DNA of 64,000 nucleotides from Pseudaquabacterium terrae (lineage in GTDB: Bacteria > Pseudomonadota > Gammaproteobacteria > Burkholderiales > Burkholderiaceae_C): NCBI RefSeq assembly GCF_013266755.1, contig NZ_JABRWJ010000009.1, positions 248,001-312,000 on the forward strand. The letters run 5' to 3'. Positions 1 to 9,764 of the stretch are shown in pieces; the stretch's first letter is position 1; each line of letters begins with the position of its first letter. The translations under genes and the position numbers were made by a program. The notes below the pieces were generated by a model, which saw only the letters and a list, made by a program, of their open reading frames with translations, was not told the DNA's origin and made no database searches.

Positions 1-809
1 ATGCGGCCGTGCGCACCGATGCCGAACCAGGTGCCGTCGACGTCCGACTCGTCCTGCGCCGCGGCCGCAACGACCTGGCCCGGCGTCTCGGCAGCCGAAC
101 GGTCGCGCTGGTGCAGCAGCATCAGGTGGCGCTCGAAAGCCTTGTCGTGCGACCAGGTGGCCTGCGCCAGCCAGCGCCGCACGCGCTGGCGCTCGGGATC
201 GATGCCGCGGCGGTCGCTGCGCACGCGGGCCTGCTCGCGCGCCAGCGCGGCGATGACTTCGAGATCGTCGACGTCGTAGCTGGCGCGCAGCGCGTCGAGC
301 TCCTCGTCCCACCACCAGCGCCGCTCGTCCTCGAACTTCAGCCGCCCGATGTCGACATCGACGCCGCTGCCGCGCAGGTTGCGGCGGTGCAGCCAGAACT
401 CGCCCCGCTCGACGAAGCGTGCCGTCGGCCCGCCGGCGCTGCCGGCGACACGTTCGCGCTCGGCCGCCAGGCGCAGCTGGGCGAAGGCCGACCAGTGCTC
501 GTCGAACGGATAGAAGGCCTCCAGCTCGAGCACGCCGACGCGCTGCGAACGCTTGCGCGCCGCGCCGCCCAGGCCGGGCGCGCGCTGCGTGCCGAGCTCG
601 AGCACGAGCTCGCCGCTCAAGGTGAGCGGCCGCCCGGCCAGGTCGATGGTGTGCGGATGGTCGGGCCGGCGCTTGTCCTCGCGCTCCGTCAGTCGCTCGC
701 GCAGGCTCTCGGTGCGATGGGTCTCCAGCTGGGTCGGCGGCGGCTCGGCGGCCGCTGCCGCGGTGATGAGCACACTGCACAAGCCGCAGCACAGGCTGGT
801 CGGCATCAT
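1..809 (-). CDS. Alginate-export-family outer membrane protein (5' part only)
   Basis: This minus-strand frame opens at the ATG at 809 and runs off the left edge, leaving 269 N-terminal residues and no stop. It starts with a short hydrophobic stretch ending near residue 21 (a weak signal peptide), then a charged segment, then alternating beta-type sequence typical of a porin barrel. The run RRWWWDEELDA (about residues 163-173) and the LEAFYPFDEHW and GRLKFEDER segments resemble the AlgE-like alginate export family. That family forms outer membrane channels for anionic polysaccharide or other solutes. The mipA-like gene upstream is on the same strand. The family call is by recognition and the substrate is unknown. 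Confidence 0.7.
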   Translation of the reverse strand, partial: MMPTSLCCGLCSVLITAAAAAEPPPTQLETHRTESLRERLTEREDKRRPDHPHTIDLAGRPLTLSGELVLELGTQRAPGLGGAARKRSQRVGVLELEAFYPFDEHWSAFAQLRLAAERERVAGSAGGPTARFVERGEFWLHRRNLRGSGVDVDIGRLKFEDERRWWWDEELDALRASYDVDDLEVIAALAREQARVRSDRRGIDPERQRVRRWLAQATWSHDKAFERHLMLLHQRDRSAAETPGQVVAAAAQDESDVDGTWFGIGAHGR

Positions 810-870
810 GCGTGCAGGTCCCGTCCGGTTTGGCGACCGGCGATGTTAGCGGCGACCAGCGGCGCGGGTC

Positions 871-1686
871 TCACCGGCAGCAGCGGTAGCCGATCCCGAT
901 CGAGGCGCTGACGGCCTGGTCGCGTGGCGTCAGCGGACTGGCCGCCGCGCCGCCTTGCAGCGAGCTCAGGCCGACCTGCGCATACAGCACCCAGTGCGGC
1001 GCCAGCGTGGTCGCGACGCCGGTGCCGATCGTCCAGTCGCGCAGCCCGGCGCCGGGCCGGTAGACCGCCGGCGCGCCACGCGCGTGCGCCGCCGGGTCGA
1101 TGCCGTACCAGGTCTGCATGTGACGGGCGTCGGCCCAGGTCAGACCGGCCGCGGCACTCCATTCGCTGCGCTCGCCGAGCGGGTGGCGCCAGCCGATGCC
1201 GGCACCCAGCAGCGCCCCGCCGCCGCGTCCGAGCACATCCTGCGTCAGCGACGCCGACAAGGTCCATTGCCGGTCGAGCGCCTGGCTGGCGTAGACGCGG
1301 GCGCGCAAGGTGCGCGGGATGTCGGGCAGGCCGCTGAGCGTGGGCGAGCGCGCGGCGCGCCGGCCACTGTCGATGCGCGCGCCGATGCCGAGCTTGAAGC
1401 CGTCGGTCCTCAGCAGCTCCGCGCTGGCGCCCGAGCCACGCGCGCCGTTGCCGAAGTCCATCAGCTGCGCCGAGCGCGAGGTGCCGATGCGCCAGCGGCC
1501 GTGCTGCAGCACCCACAGCGGGCGCAGGCGCAGCTCGTGCTGCCCCGCACCGGCGTAGATCGGCGACCAGGCCAGCGCGCCGCCGAGCGCCCAACGTGCC
1601 TGGGGCTCGCCGTCCTGCGCCGGCGCCGCGGCGGCAGCGCAGCTCAGGGCCAGGGCGGTGCAGGCACGAGCGGCAGCGGTGGTCAT
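871..1686 (-). CDS. MipA/OmpV family outer membrane protein
   Basis: A protein of 271 residues starting at ATG 1686. The frame stays open 18 codons further upstream, but a signal peptide (MTTAAARACTALALSCAAAAAPAQ) begins exactly at 1686, so the shorter start is preferred. The mature part has the alternating aromatic/polar pattern of a beta barrel (GGALAWSPIYAGAGQH, then a C-terminal strand ending IGIGYRCCR), as in MipA/OmpV proteins. These are outer membrane proteins tied to murein synthesis scaffolds or to permeability changes. It is divergent from the response regulator at 1815, a common pairing in which the regulator controls the porin. A CTTA repeat pointing toward this gene lies at 1739-1755. 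Confidence 0.8.
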   Translation of the reverse strand: MTTAAARACTALALSCAAAAAPAQDGEPQARWALGGALAWSPIYAGAGQHELRLRPLWVLQHGRWRIGTSRSAQLMDFGNGARGSGASAELLRTDGFKLGIGARIDSGRRAARSPTLSGLPDIPRTLRARVYASQALDRQWTLSASLTQDVLGRGGGALLGAGIGWRHPLGERSEWSAAAGLTWADARHMQTWYGIDPAAHARGAPAVYRPGAGLRDWTIGTGVATTLAPHWVLYAQVGLSSLQGGAAASPLTPRDQAVSASIGIGYRCCR

Positions 1687-1708
1687 GCCCGCAGCATCGG
1701 CGGTGCGG

Positions 1709-1725
1709 CTTAGCACTCGCTTAAG
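1709..1725 (+). promoter_or_regulatory. PmrA/QseB-type regulator box, CTTAGC-N5-CTTAAG
   Basis: Two hexamers (CTTAGC at 1709-1714 and CTTAAG at 1720-1725) have an 11-bp period, as in the PmrA box (YTTAAK-N5-YTTAAK). TTA/TAA-rich words are rare in this GC-rich DNA. Allowing for three spacer bases, 17 of 20 positions match the site at 7709-7725. It lies about 90 bp upstream of the response regulator. Binding is inferred. Confidence 0.6.
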
Positions 1726-1738
1726 CCGGGCGCGGCGC

Positions 1739-1755
1739 ACTAAGTCCGGCGTAAG
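1739..1755 (-). promoter_or_regulatory. Second CTTA direct repeat facing mipA
   Basis: Read on the minus strand this is CTTACG-N5-CTTAGT, again with an 11-bp period, starting about 50 bp upstream of the MipA/OmpV start. It is a weaker match than the 1709 and 7709 sites. It points the other way, which suits divergent control of the porin by the adjacent regulator. Confidence 0.45.
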
Positions 1756-1814
1756 TCGTGCCGGCGCACACTGGCGCGGCTACGATCTGCCGCTGCTGCC
1801 CGCACACCTGCCGA

Positions 1815-2474
1815 ATGCGCCTGCTCCTCGTCGAAGACGACACGATGATCGGCCGCGGCCTGCGCCAGGCGATGGCTGCGGCCGGCTTCGCCGTCGATTG
1901 GGTGCGCGACGGCCGCACCGCCGAGCTGGCGCTGGCCAACGGCGTCTACGACCTGGCGCTGCTCGACCTGGGCCTGCCGCGCCAGGACGGCCTGACGCTG
2001 CTGCGAGCCCGGCGCGGCCGCGGCGACGCGACGCCGGTGATGATCGTCACCGCGCGGGATGCCGTGGCCGAGCGCGTCGCCGGGCTCGACGCCGGCGCCG
2101 ACGACTACGTGCTGAAACCCTTCGACCTGGACGAGCTGCTGGCGCGCGCCCGCGCCCTGCTGCGCCGGCACCACGGCAGTACGTCGCCGCTGTTGCGGGC
2201 CGGTGACCTGGTGCTCGACCCGAAGCGCAAGCTGCTGACGCTGCAGGGCCAGCCGGTCGAGCTGTCGGCGCGCCAGCTGGCCTTGCTGGAAGCGTTGATG
2301 CGGCGGCCCGGCGCGGTGCTGTCACGCGAGCAGCTCGAAGAGTCGGTCTACGGCTGGGGCGAGGAAGTCGACAGCAACGCGATCGAGGTGCACCTGCACA
2401 ACCTGCGCCGCAAGCTCGGCAGCCAGCGCATTCGCAACGTGCGCGGCGTCGGCTACCGCATCGCGGAGGATTGA
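1815..2474 (+). CDS. OmpR-family response regulator (PmrA/QseB-like)
   Basis: A 219-residue regulator of the usual OmpR length. The receiver domain covers residues 1-115, with acidic pocket E7-D8-D9, phospho-acceptor D51 (LALLDLGLP), T79 and K101 (VLKPFD). A winged-helix DNA-binding domain follows (about 125-217), ending HLHNLRRKLGSQRIRNVRG then a GYRI strand. The start was set at MRLLLVEDD; the frame stays open upstream, but that part matches nothing in the family. The stop codon overlaps the kinase start (TGATG), so the two are co-translated. Subfamily placement near PmrA/QseB/TctD rests on sequence feel and on the CTTA-type repeats nearby. Confidence 0.9.
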   Translation: MRLLLVEDDTMIGRGLRQAMAAAGFAVDWVRDGRTAELALANGVYDLALLDLGLPRQDGLTLLRARRGRGDATPVMIVTARDAVAERVAGLDAGADDYVLKPFDLDELLARARALLRRHHGSTSPLLRAGDLVLDPKRKLLTLQGQPVELSARQLALLEALMRRPGAVLSREQLEESVYGWGEEVDSNAIEVHLHNLRRKLGSQRIRNVRGVGYRIAED

Positions 2475-3850
2475 TGCGCTCGCTCGAGCGCCAGTTGCTG
2501 GCCTGGCTGCTGGCCGCGCTGCTGTTCGGCACCGCGGTGCTGGCCACGGTGTCCTACGTCGTGACGCTGGAGGAGGTCGACGAGACCTTCGACGACAGCC
2601 TGCGCCAGATCGCGCTGGCGGTGGCCGGCACGCCCGGCGGCGCGGCCGCGCTGCCGCCGCGCCCGGCGCGCGCCGCGGTCGACGACGACCGCAGCGAGAT
2701 CGATTTCGTCACGCAGGTCTGGACGCCGGACGGGCAGCTCGCCTACAGCTCGCACCCGGGCCTCGAGCTGCCGTTCTCGCGCCGCGAAGGCCATGCCCGC
2801 ATCAGAGGCAGCGACGGCAACGGTGGCGATTGGCACCGCTACACCGTGGTCACCGAACAGCGCGTCGTGCAGGTCGCGCAGCGTGCCGACGAGCGCAGCG
2901 ATTTCGCGCTCGACAGCGCCCTGACGGTGATGTGGTCGCTCGCGGCGATGGTCGGCGTGCTGGCCGCGTTGCTGGTGGCGGCGCTGCGGCGCGGGCTGCG
3001 CCCGCTCGGCCGCGCGACGCGCAGCGTGGCCGAACGCAGCGCGACTTCGCTCGAGCCGATCGGCGAAGCCGGCCTGCCGCGTGAGCTCCAACCGCTGCTG
3101 CGGGCGATCAACGAGCTGCTGCAGCGGCTGTCGGAGGCGCTGGCGACGCAGCGCCGCTTCGTCGCCGACGCGGCGCACGAGCTGCGCACGCCGGTGACCG
3201 CGCTGCGGCTGCAGCTGCAGCTGCTGCAGCGCGCCGACGATGAGGCCGACCGCGCGGCGGCGCTGGCCGAGCTGGCCAGCGGCATCGAGCGTGCGCAGCA
3301 CCTGATCGAGCAGTTGCTGCACCTGTCGCGGCTGGAGCCGGACGCGGCCACGCGGCCGTTCGAGCCGGTCGACCTGGGCGCGCTGGCGCGCGCGGTGGTC
3401 GGCAGCCTGAGCATCAAGGCCGACCACAAGGGCATCGACCTCGGCGCCGATGCCGAGCACGGCCTGCGCGTGCCCGGCGACGTGCACCAGCTGACGATCC
3501 TGCTGAGCAACCTGGTCGAGAACGCGCTGCGCCACGGCCGCAGCGGCGGCATCGTCGACGTGCGGGCGGACCGGCTCGGACCGCACCCGATGCTGCAGGT
3601 GATCGACGACGGCCCCGGCATCGCTGCATCGGAACGCGCCCGCGTGTTCGACCGCTTCTACCGCGGCGAAGGCGCCCGCGCGGAATCGGCCGACGAAGGC
3701 TGCGGCAGCGGCCTCGGCCTGGCCATCGTCAAGGCGATCGCGCAGCGCCATGGGGCCGACGTCAGCCTGCACGACGGCCCCGCCGGCCGCGGGCTGGAGG
3801 TGCGCGTCGTCTTCGCTGCCGCAGCGCCGCCCGCGGCAGCCGCGGCATGA
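2474..3850 (+). CDS. Sensor histidine kinase (PmrB/QseC-like)
   Basis: A 458-residue inner membrane kinase paired with the preceding regulator. A first membrane helix (about residues 7-30) and a second (about 155-175, LTVMWSLAAMVGVLAALLV) enclose a periplasmic sensor domain of about 120 residues. A HAMP-like linker and the HisKA H-box FVADAAHELRTPVTAL (H near 235) follow. The HATPase part has the N box (LLSNLVENALRHG), the DDGPGI G1 box and GSGLGLAIVKAI. The domain order matches the QseC/PmrB class. What the periplasmic domain senses cannot be read from sequence; in PmrB it is ferric iron, aluminium or low pH. Confidence 0.9.
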   Translation: MRSLERQLLAWLLAALLFGTAVLATVSYVVTLEEVDETFDDSLRQIALAVAGTPGGAAALPPRPARAAVDDDRSEIDFVTQVWTPDGQLAYSSHPGLELPFSRREGHARIRGSDGNGGDWHRYTVVTEQRVVQVAQRADERSDFALDSALTVMWSLAAMVGVLAALLVAALRRGLRPLGRATRSVAERSATSLEPIGEAGLPRELQPLLRAINELLQRLSEALATQRRFVADAAHELRTPVTALRLQLQLLQRADDEADRAAALAELASGIERAQHLIEQLLHLSRLEPDAATRPFEPVDLGALARAVVGSLSIKADHKGIDLGADAEHGLRVPGDVHQLTILLSNLVENALRHGRSGGIVDVRADRLGPHPMLQVIDDGPGIAASERARVFDRFYRGEGARAESADEGCGSGLGLAIVKAIAQRHGADVSLHDGPAGRGLEVRVVFAAAAPPAAAAA

Positions 3851-3873
3851 GGCGCCGGCCGCAGGCGCGGCGC

Positions 3874-4737
3874 TCACGCGGCCACCGCCGGGGCCAGCCA
3901 GCGGCTGAGCCGCACCAACGCGACGCCGGCCTGGCGCAGCGCCACGGCAAAGTCCGCGCCACGCAGCTGCGCGAATTCGTTCTCCCGCGCGCGGCCGATC
4001 GGATCGGGCGTGCCGTCGGGCAGCGCCGGGTGGCACATCAGCAGGTCGCCGTCGCCGCACTGCGCCAGCCACTGCTGCAGCCGGCGCGGATGGGCCGCCG
4101 CGGCGGCGTGGAAATCATAGACGCCGAGCAAGCGCGCATTGAGCGGATAACCCAGCCGCTGAGCGGCCTCGGCGAAGCGGTGCCCGCCGAGCGCGGCGAC
4201 CAGCGCCGCCTTGCCGCCGGCGAGGCCGTGCAAGCGGCCGGCCGGGGCGCGGGTACGGCGCAGCCACGGCCGCCGTTGCGGATAACGCTCATCCAGAACG
4301 GCCAGCAGCGCCTCGCCGATCAGCGGCAGCTGATGCACGTGGCGATGCCCGTCGACGAAGTCCGGCGGCCGGCCGAGCGCCTGCTCGAAGGCCGTCAGCT
4401 GGACCTCGATGCGCTGCCGCAGCAGCGCGCGGTCGAGCCGACCGCTGTAGGCGCGCAGGATCAGCGCCGGCAGCGCCAGCGGCGCGGCATCGGCGCCGAC
4501 ATCCAGGTGCAGGCCGATGTCGATGCCGCCGCGGTCGAGCCGGCGCAGCGCGGGCAGCCCGCAGCCCCAGGCCGGCGCCTCGACCATGCAGGAGACGGCG
4601 GTGAGCCGGCCGGCCTGCGCCAGCGCGACGATCGCCTCGTTGATGCCGCAGCGCAGGCCGAAGTCGTCGGCGCAGACGGCGATGCGGCGCAGGCGCTGCG
4701 CTTCGCACTCGTCGGCGCTGCCGCCGCGGCGGTGCAC
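3874..4737 (-). CDS. YdjC/ChbG-type carbohydrate deacetylase (NaxD-like candidate)
   Basis: A 287-residue protein from a GTG start. It has the metal-site pattern of the YdjC/ChbG superfamily: ADDFGL near the N terminus, IGLHLDVG, then DFVDGHRHVHQLP and a late MCHPA. The family removes acetyl groups from N-acetyl sugars. Between a PmrAB-like pair and ArnT/ArnC-like glycosyltransferases, the closest functional model is NaxD of Francisella and Acinetobacter, which deacetylates undecaprenyl-phosphate-GalNAc before transfer to lipid A. HpnK (hopanoid synthesis) is the main alternative, but no hopanoid gene is present. There is no ATG at this 5' end, and it overlaps the GtrA gene on the other strand. 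Confidence 0.8.
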   Translation of the reverse strand: MHRRGGSADECEAQRLRRIAVCADDFGLRCGINEAIVALAQAGRLTAVSCMVEAPAWGCGLPALRRLDRGGIDIGLHLDVGADAAPLALPALILRAYSGRLDRALLRQRIEVQLTAFEQALGRPPDFVDGHRHVHQLPLIGEALLAVLDERYPQRRPWLRRTRAPAGRLHGLAGGKAALVAALGGHRFAEAAQRLGYPLNARLLGVYDFHAAAAAHPRRLQQWLAQCGDGDLLMCHPALPDGTPDPIGRARENEFAQLRGADFAVALRQAGVALVRLSRWLAPAVAA

Positions 4738-5187
4738 CTGGGGCTGGTGCTGATGCTGGTCAACGGCGGGCTGCTCGCACCGCTGCAAGCCAACGTGGCC
4801 GGCTGGATCGTGGCGCTGGGGGTCTCGTTCGCCGGCCACCGATGTTTCAGTTTCGCCGCGCAGCGCGCGCCGCTGGGCCGCGCCGCCGTCCGCTTCAGCG
4901 CGCTCTCGGCGGCCGGCTTCGTGCTCAACGAGGCCGCCTACGCCGGCCTGCTGCACGGCGGCTGGCGCTACGAGCCTGCGCTCGCCGCGGTGCTGCTGGG
5001 CATCGCCGCGCTCACCTATCTGCTGGCGCGTCACTGGGCGTTCCGGGGCACTGCAGCGCCGCCCGCGTCGCGGCATCGCCGCTGTCGACGCGCCACAGCC
5101 CGGCGCGCTGCGCCTGCGCCACCGGCCGCGCGTGCGCCAGAAATGGCGCGCGCCGCGCCGCATCCGGCGGAGCCACGATCCAGCTGA
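4732..5187 (+). CDS. GtrA family membrane protein
   Basis: A hydrophobic protein with the four-helix GtrA layout: VHLGLVLMLVNGGLL, NVAGWIVALGVSFAGHRCFSF, a middle pair, and LTYLLARHWAFRG. GtrA proteins are thought to help flip polyprenyl-phosphate-linked sugars across the inner membrane, which fits the flanking glycosyltransferases. Similarity begins upstream of the chosen GTG, near 4690 (LRFALVG), but no ATG, GTG or TTG exists in frame nearby, so the true start is unresolved. The core ends near 5050. A basic Ala/Arg/Pro tail then runs to 5187 inside the opposite-strand ArnT-like gene. The stop, and possibly a frame slip, deserve checking. Confidence 0.7.
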   Translation: MHLGLVLMLVNGGLLAPLQANVAGWIVALGVSFAGHRCFSFAAQRAPLGRAAVRFSALSAAGFVLNEAAYAGLLHGGWRYEPALAAVLLGIAALTYLLARHWAFRGTAAPPASRHRRCRRATARRAAPAPPAARAPEMARAAPHPAEPRSS

Positions 5188-6598
5188 TGCGGTGCTGGCA
5201 CAGCCGCGGCGCGAACCGGTTGCGCTCGAGCAGCACCGCCGCGCCGGCGGACGGCGCGAAGGCCGCGGCATCGGACAGTTCGCGGCGCCAGTTGTCGAAC
5301 GTCGCCAGCGCGGGGTCGTGCCAGTCCTGCACGACGGCGACCGACCGGGGCAACGGGGCGTAGAAGCGCAGGTCGTAGAACAGGCCGTCGACGAACAGCA
5401 CCGGCTCGCCGGCCGCGCGCTGCGCCGCCAGCGCCAACGCCAGCGGCTGCGTCGAACCGGGCTGGCGCACCAGCAACAGCAGCAGTGCACCGAGGCACAG
5501 CGTGACGCCGAGACCGGCGCTGGCGCGCCAGGCCAGCGCCGCGCGGCGCGACCGGGCGGCCCAGGCCAGTCCGGCCGCGGCCACCAGCACCGCCAGCGGC
5601 GCCAGCAGCGGCAGCATGTAGCCGATGAGCTTCGAGCGCGGCACCGAGAAGAACACCAGCACCACCAGCAGCCAGCAGCCCATCAACGACCATGGCGCCG
5701 CGCCCGGTGCCGCGCCGGCCGCCCGCCTGACGCCCCAAAGCCACGGCCACCACGGCAGGCACAACAACGCCAGCACCGCCGGGTAGAACCACGCCGGCTG
5801 CACGTTGTTGAAGCCACCCCGGGCGTAGCGGTGCAGCTGCTGGCCGACGAAGAAGTAGTCGGCGAAGCCCGGGTGGCGCAGCTCCACCAGCACGAACCAC
5901 GGCGCGGCGATCGCGGCGAAGAGCAGCCAGCCCGGCCACCAGGCCAGCAGACGCGCCTGCGCCAGCCGGCGCTGGCACGCGAGCCACGCCAGCAGCACCA
6001 GCAGCGGCAGCACGATGCCGATCAGCCCCTTGGCCAGCACGCCCAGCGCCGCCAAGGCGAAGCCGGCGGCCCGTGCCGGGCGCGGCGCCTGACCGGATCC
6101 GGCGGCGGCGCTCTGCAGGGCGTGCGCCCAGGCCAACAGTGCCAGGCCGATGCAGGCGGCGACCAGCATGTCGCAGTTGGCGAACTGCGCACCGATGAAG
6201 TACATCGGCTGCGTCAGCAGCGCCAGCAGGCTGGCGCGCGCCAGCGCCGCGCCGGCCCAGCGCCGCAGGTACAGGTACAGCCCCGCCGCCAGCGCGCTGG
6301 CACCGAGCAGCGAGGCCGCGCGCGCCGCCCACTCGTGCTGGCCTAACAACGCCAGCGCGGCGGCCGTCAGCCAATAGAACAGCGGCGGCTTGTGGAAGAA
6401 CGGCAGCCCATCCAGGCGCGGCGTCAGCCAGTCGCCCGACTGCAGCATCTCCAGCGCCACGCCGACGTAGCGGCCCTCGTCCGGGAGCGCCAGTGCGCGC
6501 AGGCCGGCGCCGGCGCCGAGCCAGGCGACGATCGCCGCGAGCACACCGAGCGCTTCGGCCGGCCACCAGCTCAGTGGGCCGCCCCGGGCGGCGCTCAT
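5012..6598 (-). CDS. ArnT-like lipid A glycosyltransferase (GT39/GT83 family)
   Basis: A 528-residue polytopic enzyme. The N-terminal loop PDEGRYVGVALEMLQSGDW followed by TPRLDGLPFFHKPPLFYW is the ArnT signature (ExRY, GDW, KPP). Many membrane helices follow, with a periplasmic C-terminal part carrying FVDGLFYDLRFY. ArnT-type enzymes move an aminosugar from undecaprenyl phosphate to lipid A phosphate on the periplasmic face; FlmK does the same with galactosamine. Its ATG overlaps the stop of the upstream glycosyltransferase (TCATGA), so the two form an operon. The 3' end overlaps the convergent GtrA frame. No arnA, arnB or arnD is present, so aminoarabinose is not the obvious donor. Confidence 0.85.
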   Translation of the reverse strand: MSAARGGPLSWWPAEALGVLAAIVAWLGAGAGLRALALPDEGRYVGVALEMLQSGDWLTPRLDGLPFFHKPPLFYWLTAAALALLGQHEWAARAASLLGASALAAGLYLYLRRWAGAALARASLLALLTQPMYFIGAQFANCDMLVAACIGLALLAWAHALQSAAAGSGQAPRPARAAGFALAALGVLAKGLIGIVLPLLVLLAWLACQRRLAQARLLAWWPGWLLFAAIAAPWFVLVELRHPGFADYFFVGQQLHRYARGGFNNVQPAWFYPAVLALLCLPWWPWLWGVRRAAGAAPGAAPWSLMGCWLLVVLVFFSVPRSKLIGYMLPLLAPLAVLVAAAGLAWAARSRRAALAWRASAGLGVTLCLGALLLLLVRQPGSTQPLALALAAQRAAGEPVLFVDGLFYDLRFYAPLPRSVAVVQDWHDPALATFDNWRRELSDAAAFAPSAGAAVLLERNRFAPRLCQHRISWIVAPPDAARRAPFLAHARPVAQAQRAGLWRVDSGDAATRAALQCPGTPSDAPADR

Positions 6599-7662
6599 GA
6601 CTCGCGCGATGGCAGCCCCCGGCCCCATGCGCGCTTGACGACGTACAGCGGCCGCGCCTTGACCTCGTCGAAGATGCGACCGACATACTCGCCGAGGATG
6701 CCGATCGACACCAGCTGCACCCCGAGCAGGAACAGCAGGCTGACGATGACGGTGGTCCAGCCCGGCACCGGGTGGCCGTACAGCAGCGCCTGCAGCGCGA
6801 CGAAGCCGCCGTAGCCGAAGCCGATCAGCGCCAGCACGCCGCCGAACAGACCGGCGGCGCGCAGCGGCCAGGTGCTGAAGGCGGTCAGGCCGTCGATCGA
6901 CAGGCGCAGCAGCCGCCACAGGCCGAAGCGGCTGCGCCCGTGCGCGCGCGGCGGCGGCGCGTAGGGCAGCGCCACCGCGTCGTAGCCGACCCAGGCGTAG
7001 AGGCCCTTCATGAAGCGGCGACGCTCCGGCAGCGCCAGCAGCGCATCGACGACCACGCGGTCCATCAGCCGGAAGTCGCCCGCACCGGCCGGCAGGGTGA
7101 CCCCGCTGGCCGCGTTCATCAGGCGATAGAAGACCGCCGCGCCGAGGCGCTTCAGCAGGCCCTCGTCGGCGCGCCCGCTGCGCGCGGCGTAGACCATGTC
7201 GGCGCCGCGCCGCCACAGCGCGAGCATCTCGGCGATCAGCGCCGGCGGGTGCTGCAGGTCGGCATCCATCGTCAGCACCACCTCGCCGCAGGCGGCGCCC
7301 AGGCCGGCCGTCAGCGCCGCCTCCTTGCCGAAGTTGCGCGCCAGCTGCAGCACGCGCAGGCCCGGCCGCAGCGCGGCCTCGGCCAGCAGCGCAGCGGTGC
7401 CGTCGGTGCTGCCGTCGTCGACGAGGATCAGCTCCCAGTCGCAGCCGCAGTGCTGCAGGGCCTCGTCGAGTTGCGGCAGCAGCAGCGCCAGGTTGCGCGC
7501 CTCGTTCCAGCACGGCACGACGCACGACAGCCGCGGCCGCGCGCTGCGCCCGGGCGGCAGACGCGCCGGCGTGGCGTGCGCGGGGTCGTCGGTGCGCGCC
7601 GCTGCGGGCGCATGCGACGGCGCCGCGACACGCAGCAAGGCAGGAGCGAACGGTGGATTCAT
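6595..7662 (-). CDS. Polyprenyl-phosphate glycosyltransferase, GT2 (ArnC/FlmF/GtrB-like)
   Basis: A 355-residue enzyme with a GT-A domain: LSCVVPCWNEARNLALLLPQ, then VDDGSTDGT and the metal-binding MDADLQHP motif. Two C-terminal membrane helices follow (GLFGGVLALIGFGYGGFVAL and VSLLFLLGVQLVSIGILGEY). This is the layout of enzymes that load a nucleotide sugar onto undecaprenyl phosphate at the cytoplasmic face (ArnC, FlmF1/2, GtrB, DPM1). The substrate is not readable; the neighbouring deacetylase argues for an N-acetylhexosamine such as GalNAc. It is the first gene of a two-gene operon with the ArnT-like transferase, and a CTTAGC-N5-CTTAAG box lies 47 bp upstream. Confidence 0.87.
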   Translation of the reverse strand: MNPPFAPALLRVAAPSHAPAAARTDDPAHATPARLPPGRSARPRLSCVVPCWNEARNLALLLPQLDEALQHCGCDWELILVDDGSTDGTAALLAEAALRPGLRVLQLARNFGKEAALTAGLGAACGEVVLTMDADLQHPPALIAEMLALWRRGADMVYAARSGRADEGLLKRLGAAVFYRLMNAASGVTLPAGAGDFRLMDRVVVDALLALPERRRFMKGLYAWVGYDAVALPYAPPPRAHGRSRFGLWRLLRLSIDGLTAFSTWPLRAAGLFGGVLALIGFGYGGFVALQALLYGHPVPGWTTVIVSLLFLLGVQLVSIGILGEYVGRIFDEVKARPLYVVKRAWGRGLPSRES

Positions 7663-7708
7663 GGCGCGGCGGGGCGGGCTGTGACCCGCCGCAGTGTGAG
7701 AACGCTCG

Positions 7709-7725
7709 CTTAGCGGACGCTTAAG
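7709..7725 (+). promoter_or_regulatory. PmrA/QseB-type box upstream of the glycosyltransferase operon
   Basis: CTTAGC (7709-7714), five bases, then CTTAAG (7720-7725), embedded in GCTTAGC-N3-CGCTTAAGCC exactly as at 1708-1727. It sits 47 bp before the start codon of the minus-strand GT2 gene. On that strand it reads CTTAAG-N5-GCTAAG, so its orientation relative to the promoter is reversed compared with the site at 1709. Confidence 0.6.
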
Positions 7726-7728
7726 CCA

Positions 7729-8193
7729 TCAGGGCAGCTTCTTCTCCGCCTCGCTGATCGGCTGCCCTTTGTCGAAGATGATCTTCCACACGCCGGGCGC
7801 TTCCTGGCGCCAGACCGAGTTGAAGCGCGACGTGCGCTTGCCCGACGGATCGCGCACCGGACCCGACGAATGTGCCAACGTGCCGTCGGCCAGCACGTCG
7901 ACCTGGTCCGGCTCCCACGAGAACGGCGCTTCCTTGCCGTCGTAGAACTGCTTCCAGACCTCGACCACCGCGGCCTTGCCGCGCAGCACGCGCGTATTGC
8001 CGTAGAAGATCGTCTGCTCGGACAGGTGGCGCGTGAACGCCGCGAGGTCGCGGTCGGCCATCGACTTCGCGAAGGCGCGCTCTGCCGCCTCGACCTGCTT
8101 GCGCAGCACCTCGAGGTCCGGCGCCTGCGCTGCTGCACCGGCACTCATCGCGGCCACCCACAGGCCCGCCGCGATCCGAACGGCAGCCCGCAT
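7729..8193 (-). CDS. Exported DUF4440/SnoaL-like protein
   Basis: A 154-residue protein with a signal peptide (about residues 1-22, ending AGAAAQA) and an NTF2-like fold: helix ERAFAKSMADRDLAAFTRHL, then GNTRVLRGKAAVVEVWKQFY, and the closing strand PGVWKIIFDKG. Proteins of this type are small alpha+beta cones that bind or turn over small molecules. No specific reaction can be named. Its start is one base from the stop of the next upstream gene (8195-8524), so the two are probably co-transcribed. Confidence 0.78.
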   Translation of the reverse strand: MRAAVRIAAGLWVAAMSAGAAAQAPDLEVLRKQVEAAERAFAKSMADRDLAAFTRHLSEQTIFYGNTRVLRGKAAVVEVWKQFYDGKEAPFSWEPDQVDVLADGTLAHSSGPVRDPSGKRTSRFNSVWRQEAPGVWKIIFDKGQPISEAEKKLP

Positions 8194-8194
8194 T

Positions 8195-8524
8195 TCAACG
8201 CGAGGCCGCAGGCAGTGCCTGCGGCTCTTCGTGCAGCAACCAGAACAGCAGGATCAGCGCCGCCGCGCCGCCGATCGGGAACAGCAGCACCGCGGCCGCG
8301 ATGGCGCCGAACACGGTGCGGCCCATGCGATGCGCGCCGATGCCCAGCAGCACCCAGTGCAGCGGCAGCGCGAGCGCGATCACCAGCCCGAGGGCGACGG
8401 TGCGCGGCACCGACTCGACCGTCGAATAGACCATCGGCGGCAGGAACATCGTGATCGCGGCGACCGCGGCGATCAGCGCCAGCGCCGAGTCGGCGAGGGC
8501 CCGGCGGGCCGGCTTGTTGGGCAT
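8195..8524 (-). CDS. Small three-helix membrane protein, unknown function
   Basis: A 109-residue protein with three predicted membrane helices: ALIAAVAAITMFLPPMVYST, VALGLVIALALPLHWVLLGIG and TVFGAIAAAVLLFPIGGAAALILLFWLL. A lysine/arginine-rich N terminus (MPNKPARR) would sit in the cytoplasm. The frame stays open upstream of 8524 to 8635, but that extension covers the polymerase IV promoter and lacks natural composition. I do not recognise the family. It leads a short operon with the DUF4440-like protein. Confidence 0.65.
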   Translation of the reverse strand: MPNKPARRALADSALALIAAVAAITMFLPPMVYSTVESVPRTVALGLVIALALPLHWVLLGIGAHRMGRTVFGAIAAAVLLFPIGGAAALILLFWLLHEEPQALPAASR

Positions 8525-8594
8525 GGTGGCATCTCCGAACGAGGTCGGTCGATCGTACGCCGAAGCGACGGCGCCGGGCACCCACAATCCCCGG

Positions 8595-9764
8595 ATGACC
8601 CGCCCCCCGCGCCGCTGGATCGCGCACCTCGACATGGACGCGTTCTACGCCTCGGTCGAGCTGCTGCGTTATCCCGATCTCAAGGGTCGGCCGGTGGTCA
8701 TCGGCGGCGGCCGCCGCCACCAGCCCGAGCTGCTGGCCGATGGCACGCGGCGTTATGCGCGGCTGGCCGACTACACCGGCCGCGGCGTCATCACCACCGC
8801 GACCTATCCGGCGCGCGACCTCGGCGTGCACTCCGGCATGGGCCTGATGAAGGCCGCGCTGCGTGCGCCGCAGGCGGTGCTGCTGCCGACCGACTTCGAC
8901 CAGTACCGAGCCTACTCGCGCCGCTTCAAGGCGGCGGTGGCCGAGGTCGCGCCGCTGATCGAGGACCGCGGCATCGACGAGATCTACATCGAGCTGACCG
9001 AGCTGCCCGGCGCGCAGGAGCCGGTCGGCCACGATCCGTACGGCGGCGTGCGGGCGATCGCGCTGGACATCAAGAACAACGTCCGGCGCGCGACCGGCCT
9101 GACCTGCTCGATCGGCGTGACGCCGAACAAGCTGCTGTCGAAGATCGCCTCCGAGCTCGACAAGCCCGACGGGCTGACGCTGCTGACGCACGAGGACATC
9201 CCCGAGCGCATCTGGCCGCTGCCGGTGCGGCGCATCAACGGCATCGGGCCGAAGGCCGGTGCCAAGCTCGCCACGCTCGACATCCACACCATCGGCGAGC
9301 TCGCCGAGCGCGAGCGGCCCTGGCTGGTGCAGCAGTTCGGCCGCAGCTACGGCGCCTGGCTGCACGACGCCTCGCACGGCGTCGACGAGCGCGCGCTGGT
9401 CACGCACAGCGAGCCGGTGACGATCAGCCGCGAGACGACCTTCGACCGCGACTTGCACGCCAAGCGCGACAAGGCCGAGCTGTCGGCGATCTTCACGCGG
9501 CTGGTCGAGCAGCTGGCGCTCGACCTGCAGCGCAAGGGTTACGTCGGCCGCACGATCGGCATCAAGCTGCGCTTCGAGGACTTCAAGACCGTCACGCGCG
9601 ACATGACGATCGAGGCGCCGACCGCCGAAGCGGCGACGATCCGGCTGGCCGCGGGCCTGTGCCTGAAGCGCGTCGACCTGGCGCGGCGCATCCGGCTGCT
9701 CGGCGTGCGCGTAAGTGCGCTGCGGCGCGCCGGTCCTGGGTCGGACCCGGGTGCGCGCGCATGA
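8595..9764 (+). CDS. dinB: DNA polymerase IV (Y family)
   Basis: A 389-residue translesion polymerase. The palm starts with HLDMDAFYASVE (metal ligand D) and includes RGIDEIYIELTE (second acidic pair). The fingers/thumb hold GLTCSIGVTPNKLLSKIASE and the helix-hairpin-helix region has INGIGPKAGAKL. The C-terminal little finger domain is complete (QRKGYVGRTIGIKLRFEDF). Relative to the E. coli protein there is an extra stretch after GRPVVIGG (HQPELLADGTRRYARLADY), common in Burkholderiales homologues as I recall. It copies damaged templates and raises mutation rate. It is a single gene; no SOS box was identified by eye. Confidence 0.93.
   Translation: MTRPPRRWIAHLDMDAFYASVELLRYPDLKGRPVVIGGGRRHQPELLADGTRRYARLADYTGRGVITTATYPARDLGVHSGMGLMKAALRAPQAVLLPTDFDQYRAYSRRFKAAVAEVAPLIEDRGIDEIYIELTELPGAQEPVGHDPYGGVRAIALDIKNNVRRATGLTCSIGVTPNKLLSKIASELDKPDGLTLLTHEDIPERIWPLPVRRINGIGPKAGAKLATLDIHTIGELAERERPWLVQQFGRSYGAWLHDASHGVDERALVTHSEPVTISRETTFDRDLHAKRDKAELSAIFTRLVEQLALDLQRKGYVGRTIGIKLRFEDFKTVTRDMTIEAPTAEAATIRLAAGLCLKRVDLARRIRLLGVRVSALRRAGPGSDPGARA

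Follow-up and report, generated by a model that had tools for sequence, protein, structure and literature searches.

A compact cluster of genes lies within 0.9–7.7 kb of the window, the whole 64-kb stretch of Pseudaquabacterium terrae DNA analysed here (host genome 8.04 Mb in 56 contigs), and all coordinates below are positions in this window unless another locus is named. The cluster, whose G+C content is 74–75%, contains genes for a response regulator and a sensor kinase, a YdjC-family deacetylase, a GtrA-type membrane protein, an ArnT-like glycosyltransferase and a GT2 sugar transferase, with a divergent mipA family gene at one edge (Table 1); quite probably it is a lipid A hexosamine locus of the Lgm/NaxD type under the control of its adjacent PmrA-type regulator. 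All of the genes named in a preliminary description of this DNA are present, as confirmed by Pfam, NCBIfam and PDB sequence searches. That description ran the cluster from 1686 to 7662; the GT2 boundary at 7662 stands, but 1686 is the mipA ATG codon, and the cluster extends over 871–7662 if mipA is included.

Table 1. Genes and sites in and beside the cluster (window positions)
Feature	Position	Strand	Basis and remarks
mipA/OmpV-type outer-membrane beta-barrel gene	871..1686	-	PF06629, 125.6 bits; divergent from regulator gene; ATG 1686 assumed
PmrA-box-like site CTTAGC-N5-CTTAAG, CTTAGCACTCGCTTAAG	1709..1725	+	mipA-regulator gap; strict pattern
Weaker box-like site CTTACGCCGGACTTA	1741..1755	-	same mipA-regulator gap
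OmpR-family response regulator, PmrA/QseB-like	1815..2474	+	Pfam/NCBIfam
Sensor histidine kinase, QseC/PmrB-like (2CSK_N, HisKA, HATPase_c)	2471..3850	+	start TTG 2471 or ATG 2474
YdjC-family deacetylase, LgmC/NaxD-like	3874..4737	-	PF04794, 149 bits, and tree; start uncertain
GtrA-type membrane protein, candidate flippase, LgmD-like by position	4696..5187	+	PF04138, 65 bits; start uncertain, CTG 4696 or GTG 4732
Antisense tail-to-tail overlap gtrA/arnT-like, 176 bp	5012..5187	.	gene coordinates
ArnT-like membrane glycosyltransferase, LgmB-like	5012..6598	-	likely ATG 6598 overlaps GT2 stop codon
GT2 polyprenyl-phosphate sugar transferase, LgmA-like (ArnC/GtrB type)	6595..7662	-	Pfam/NCBIfam/PDB and tree
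PmrA-box-like site CTTAGC-N5-CTTAAG, CTTAGCGGACGCTTAAG	7709..7725	+	47 bp upstream of GT2 start codon
SnoaL/DUF4440 gene	7729..8193	-	Pfam

The YdjC protein matches its Pfam family at 3e-43 over profile positions 1–265 of 266 and the GtrA protein at 9e-18 over positions 1–117 of 117, and family searches of the whole genome found a single member of each. The ArnT-like protein matches PMT_2 (3e-11) and PDB entry 5ezm (3e-43) and scores 175.5 bits on the NCBIfam ArnT model (cut-off 567); the GT2 protein matches Glycos_transf_2 (1e-29) and the GtrB-like sll0501 (1e-83) and scores 178.6 bits on the NCBIfam ArnC model (cut-off 529). MipA is matched by Pfam at 4e-36. The four genes for GT2, ArnT-like, YdjC and GtrA proteins that make up an Lgm-type set are thus found together in the window, with gtrA on the plus strand, antisense between the arnT-like gene and ydjC.

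Two other identities of the YdjC protein were rejected: it scores only 59.1 bits on the HpnK model TIGR03473 (cut-off 232.6) and 46.5 bits on the ChbG model NF002559 (cut-off 227), and it lies apart from both in the YdjC tree. This tree was built from 66 of 137 rows, after matches of ≤80 bits and <220 residues were dropped; like the ArnT-like and GT2 trees below, to which 51 hand-picked loci were offered, it is a quick search on hand-picked rows with only Shimodaira-Hasegawa-like approximate likelihood ratio test (SH-aLRT) support. A branch of support 100 parts 53 module rows (the window's included) and one further row, L199, from five HpnK rows, which form their own group (support 99), and from the outgroup, E. 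coli ChbG. The grouping with HpnK or chitooligosaccharide deacetylases that the preliminary description had set against its lipid A reading did not appear.

The window shares ArnT-like and ArnC-like families with the aminoarabinose (arn) pathway, but the K-12 ArnT and ArnC proteins stand on long branches outside the module rows. E. coli ArnA has two partial matches at different places in the genome (31% over residues 13–312 and 23% over residues 317–602), and E. coli ArnD has none in the whole genome in a search run without a positive control; with these two queries (arnB was not searched) a complete arn pathway was not found.

Relatives of the cluster and the likely sugar

Relatives of the YdjC protein occur in 13 of 60 near genomes and, across the order, in 48 of 399; both counts include the genome from which the window comes. 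A scan of titled genomes confirmed 518 loci, and the counts for titled loci given here all refer to the best 80 of them; B. pertussis is absent from the loci kept for comparison. All four genes lie within 4.5 kb of one another in 52 of the 80, and 34 have the window's layout, GT2 > ArnT-like > antisense gtrA > YdjC, among them Bordetella trematum (L162), twelve Achromobacter loci, Alcaligenes, Thiobacillus and Piscinibacter (L172). A second set of 55 YdjC stretches, some of which duplicate titled loci, includes 21 with all four genes and 5 with the same layout. Other arrangements also occur: Comamonadaceae loci have YdjC and ArnT-like genes on one strand and GtrA and GT2 genes on the opposite one, the Methylovorus and Methylotenera loci have no ArnT-like match, and two Acinetobacter loci (L134 and L153) carry YdjC, GT2, GtrA and ArnT-like genes consecutively. 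Genomes of the window's own genus (L052–L056) have GT2 and ydjC genes and, in the opposite orientation, an ArnT-like gene, and give no GtrA match; they fall in other subclades than the window, so its copy may be a separate acquisition.

Among the closest known systems is the lgm locus (lgmA–D) of Bordetella. In B. pertussis lgmA, lgmB and lgmC are reported to be needed for glucosamine to be present on lipid A and the remaining gene of the cluster, lgmD, not to be needed, and expression is described as BvgASR-controlled (PMC4993483); LgmB is reported to attach glucosamine to the phosphates (PMC11401268), and the B. holmesii lgm locus is given as ~3.5 kb with ArnT within it (PMC5454989). The window has the same gene families as these loci, the antisense-gtrA layout of Achromobacter and of B. 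trematum L162, which we take to be an lgm locus with the GtrA protein presumably its LgmD, and a deacetylase of the same 28-row clade (see below). The differences lie in control: Bvg control is what has been reported in Bordetella (PMC4993483, PMC5454989) and L162 is without a strict PmrA box (defined below), whereas the window has a linked PmrA/QseB-like pair, mipA and two boxes.

The Acinetobacter naxD operon likewise has YdjC, GT2, GtrA and ArnT-like genes together, with boxes before ydjC, and the ydjC genes of L134 and L153 are presumably naxD. It differs in that all of its genes are on one strand with ydjC first, in falling in another subclade of the YdjC and ArnT-like trees and in the galactosamine reported for it; the window's regulator and kinase have no match in the 20.8-kb Acinetobacter stretches of L134 and L153. 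NaxD, FlmF2 and FlmK of Francisella, as described, follow the same logic of a GT2 enzyme, a deacetylase and an ArnT-like transferase. The preliminary description took the full set to be undescribed. This cannot be upheld, since Bordetella lgmA–D have already been described (PMC4993483) and the Acinetobacter loci hold all four families, so that the enzyme set itself is not new.

The window's YdjC protein falls in a 28-row clade (support 97) with those of Bordetella, Achromobacter, Alcaligenes, Thiobacillus and Piscinibacter, and both Acinetobacter rows are outside it. In the ArnT-like tree the window joins Piscinibacter (97) and then L140 (87) in a group that includes Bordetella (89); the sister group (86) contains Acinetobacter. 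Lipid A of Achromobacter carries an extra hexosamine identified as glucosamine by gas chromatography-mass spectrometry, the share of which seemed higher under polymyxin in two isolates (PMC9927164). We think it unlikely that the same pathway adds galactosamine here, as in Francisella and Acinetobacter. The Acinetobacter loci do carry the same four genes, and N-acetylgalactosamine is given as the substrate of Acinetobacter NaxD (PMC10927774), but both of these trees place the window with Bordetella and not with Acinetobacter, and Achromobacter and Bordetella are reported to carry glucosamine (PMC4993483, PMC9927164, PMC5454989). The GT2 tree does not decide the sugar, because rooting on the very long E. 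coli ArnC branch puts Bordetella and Acinetobacter together in a 44-row group (94) to which the window does not belong; unrooted, the tree has Acinetobacter across the split (99) from the window. The clustering of the window's deacetylase with the Bordetella and Achromobacter ones makes glucosamine somewhat likelier than galactosamine, and a lipid A phosphate capped with glucosamine is the probable product, with an addition of +161 Da, a mass that alone does not separate the two sugars. The hexosamine module and PmrAB-like control proposed in the preliminary description are retained, on the gene families, the clade, the precedents and the boxes before both units, with its galactosamine replaced by glucosamine as the favoured sugar.

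The regulator pair and its box-like sites

The regulator contains Response_reg and Trans_reg_C domains and scores 248 bits on the NCBIfam PmrA model (cut-off 330) and 246 bits on the QseB model; the kinase scores 221 bits on QseC, 191 bits on a heavy-metal-type model and 165 bits on PmrB (cut-off 314). By these scores the pair is as near to QseBC as to PmrAB; a box is present both in the pair's own promoter gap and at lipid A modification genes, as expected for PmrAB. If mipA starts at 1686, its start and that of the regulator at 1815 diverge across a 128 bp gap with two box-like sites. The strict PmrA-box pattern, YTTARN6YTTAR, has two matches in the 64-kb window, where 0.01 are expected (this expectation, like those for the kinase kin and the 80 titled loci below, is from first-order Markov shuffles), and is found at only three places in the 8.04-Mb genome, in which the reversed pattern has 29 matches. 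The three are the mipA-regulator gap, the region before the GT2 operon and a site, CTTAAGACAGGCTTAAG, at 7992–8008 of L186 (contig C7 of the same genome). The box at 7709–7725 is thus also the one before the deacetylase, if ydjC is co-transcribed from there, as we assume.

A second regulator and kinase pair is found at L186 (5638–10058), divergent from a PAP2 gene that is followed by an EptA-type lipid A phosphoethanolamine transferase gene (528 bits, cut-off 500), and the third box lies between this pair and the PAP2-eptA unit. The regulators of the two pairs are 54% identical and the kinases 31%. Each of the three genomic boxes adjoins a regulator pair or a lipid A modification unit, which supports a single PmrA-type lipid A regulon. 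The looser pattern YTTAN7YTTA has eight places in the genome, four of them at the window and eptA loci; the others are on C54 and C12, beside acetyl-CoA synthetase/UPF0114/fumarase genes and a methyltransferase gene, with two on C1. A sigma-70 promoter scan of 800–8600 gave no match.

Comparable sites are known elsewhere. A. baumannii PmrA is reported to bind TTTAAGN5TTTAAG before pmrC and naxD (PMC10927774). We find box-like sites 57–70 bp before ydjC at both Acinetobacter loci, which are less telling because the G+C content there is 38%. Kin of the window's kinase in other genomes give a further comparison: their 29 loci hold 15 strict boxes against 0.14 expected, and 10 of the 29 carry a box, which in 6 of these is at most about 200 bp before the regulator. 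The window's regulator family therefore probably reads the YTTARN6YTTAR box. At these ten boxed loci the neighbour scan, which took one hand-picked open frame per locus, found DegP four times and EptA, ArnT, an M50 peptidase, an outer-membrane efflux protein, cardiolipin synthase and a BrnA antitoxin once each. We note that at L219 (1–3600), in a different family within the order, one strand carries a kin regulator, a kinase and an ArnT gene (Arnt_C domain), with a box before the regulator.

The enzymes might be Lgm-like and the adjacent pair a mere bystander, the sites being bound by the second regulator, beside eptA. The second pair has a box too, the two regulators are as similar as noted above, and a regulator pair lies within 6.5 kb at only 13 of the 80 titled loci; set against this, one of the three boxes is in the window pair's own promoter gap, and the loci of the kinase kin are themselves boxed at the frequency just given. 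We regard such a bystander role as doubtful. An open-access literature search listed no work on a PmrA-box-linked lgm-type locus; the kind of locus is already known, and the linked PmrA/QseB-like pair with its matching operator-like sites is the new part.

A proposed pathway and the evidence against it

Read from the gene families, their layout, the deacetylase clade and the rare box sites, the cluster very probably serves to add an amino-sugar cap to a lipid of the outer membrane, as a defence against charged antimicrobial peptides. The GT2 protein would charge undecaprenyl phosphate with an N-acetylhexosamine taken from a UDP-sugar, the YdjC protein would strip the acetyl group on the cytoplasmic side, and the GtrA protein would help to carry the lipid-linked amino sugar across the inner membrane, where the ArnT-like protein would transfer it, most likely as glucosamine, to the lipid A phosphates and so lessen their negative charge. 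The kinase would sense an envelope signal (cationic peptide, metal or pH), and the regulator would bind 1709–1725 and 7709–7725, switching on its own gene, mipA and the GT2 operon together with the distant eptA unit. A known lipid A amino-sugar pathway would thereby be tied to a linked PmrA-type regulator, whose small regulon, as predicted from the three genomic sites, would consist of the amino-sugar operon, the eptA unit and mipA. It is quite unlikely that the genes decorate some other glycan (O-antigen, core or another polymer), in the manner of the Gtr-type three-component systems, with lipid A not the target: the closeness of the GT2 protein to GtrB-like sll0501 and the presence of GtrA would fit, but the set ends with an ArnT-like enzyme and contains a deacetylase, and its box recurs at the eptA unit.

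Several observations, besides the rooted GT2 tree, weigh against a lipid A locus controlled by its adjacent PmrA-type regulator. The hand-picked, quick trees are a weakness. Neither protein of the pair reaches the curated NCBIfam cut-offs for PmrA and PmrB, nor those for QseB and QseC. The 17-base site, allowed up to three mismatches, is at chance in the window (11 observed, 11.2 expected), so the case for regulation rests on the two exact copies, and an alternative mipA start, GTG 1740, would place the main box inside mipA. Among titled loci with a GT2 match only 5 of 75 have a strict box close to where a module gene begins, as do none of 47 stretches of the second set, and the total in the 80 titled loci is that expected by chance (15 against 13.7). 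A box as a general feature of such loci is rejected on these counts; by the same comparison, box control by a linked PmrA-like pair is a variant and not the rule. The five are Vogesella (L106), Accumulibacter (L107), an Alcaligenaceae strain (L159) and the two Acinetobacter loci, and these boxes, set beside the Bvg control reported in Bordetella, suggest to us that the regulation of this enzyme set was rewired on more than one occasion.

Further counter-evidence comes from seven Thiobacillus-type loci (L105, L108, L109, L111, L112, which is titled as a Rhizobium metagenome-assembled genome, L116 and L124), at which a pair is divergent from GT2 across a similar intergenic stretch; there is no strict box at any of these or at L140, despite the pair beside the GT2 end. 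That the window's pair is an ortholog of the Thiobacillus-type pair is not favoured, as the regulators are 49–50% identical and the gaps have no strict box, although the kin of the kinase themselves span 48–65% identity, so that the two pairs may yet be orthologs.

The starts of ydjC and gtrA also count against an intact locus. The conserved parts of these two genes are head to head and only 12 bp apart, so their start regions overlap (4674–4839). For gtrA there is no ATG, GTG or TTG from 189 bp upstream to the conserved start of helix 1, and the nearest ydjC start codons are distant (GTG 4737, which is inside gtrA, TTG 4788 and GTG 4839), with no ribosome site seen for GTG 4737. In this one genome the junction may reflect unusual initiation, a late start or damage. 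Decay of the locus, with both start regions lost and the pathway incomplete, would also fit the window's YdjC protein being shorter than its relatives after the GLHL motif, but it is very improbable, as the frames are open, the Pfam matches are full length, all residues invariant in 18 aligned YdjC proteins (the window's among them) are kept, and in L140, too, the 56 bp before the YdjC match contain no common start codon.

Overlapping and neighbouring genes

The antisense position of gtrA between the arnT-like gene and ydjC means that gtrA is read against an operon that must continue into ydjC. The 3' ends of gtrA and the arnT-like gene overlap convergently, by 35–458 bp, in 33 of the 34 titled loci of the same layout, and they overlap in all five such loci of the second set; the lone exception, L160, has two arnT pieces, of which the measurement took in only the first. 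Of the 176 bp of overlap in the window, 32 bp are within the GtrA Pfam match.

The mipA family gene adjoins the regulator pair, as does that of the polymyxin-sensor MipA. The P. aeruginosa MipA barrel is reported to bind polymyxins, and the neighbouring ParRS system, through ParR, to induce mipBA (PMC10936184). The window resembles that system in having a MipA gene beside a regulator pair and differs from it in the gene after mipA, the one place examined for mipB, which encodes not mipB but an alginate-export-type barrel. By this analogy MipA may be a sensor. A reading that joins all of these features, and that we consider improbable as a whole, would have the MipA barrel detect cationic peptides and signal to the adjacent kinase, the regulator co-induce the sensor, itself, the amino-sugar operon and the distant eptA unit through the near-identical CTTAGC-N5-CTTAAG sites, and antisense gtrA adjust, through convergent transcription, how much deacetylase or flippase is made. 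A constant association of mipA with kinases of this family was rejected, there being no mipA match in the 1.5-kb flanks of the 29 kin.

The barrel gene directly downstream of mipA (Alginate_exp, an outer-membrane protein) is co-stranded with it and occupies window 1–809 (L187 17355–18809). At the other edge of the cluster, the SnoaL/DUF4440 gene is probably outside the GT2 unit, because the box sits between it and the GT2 gene.

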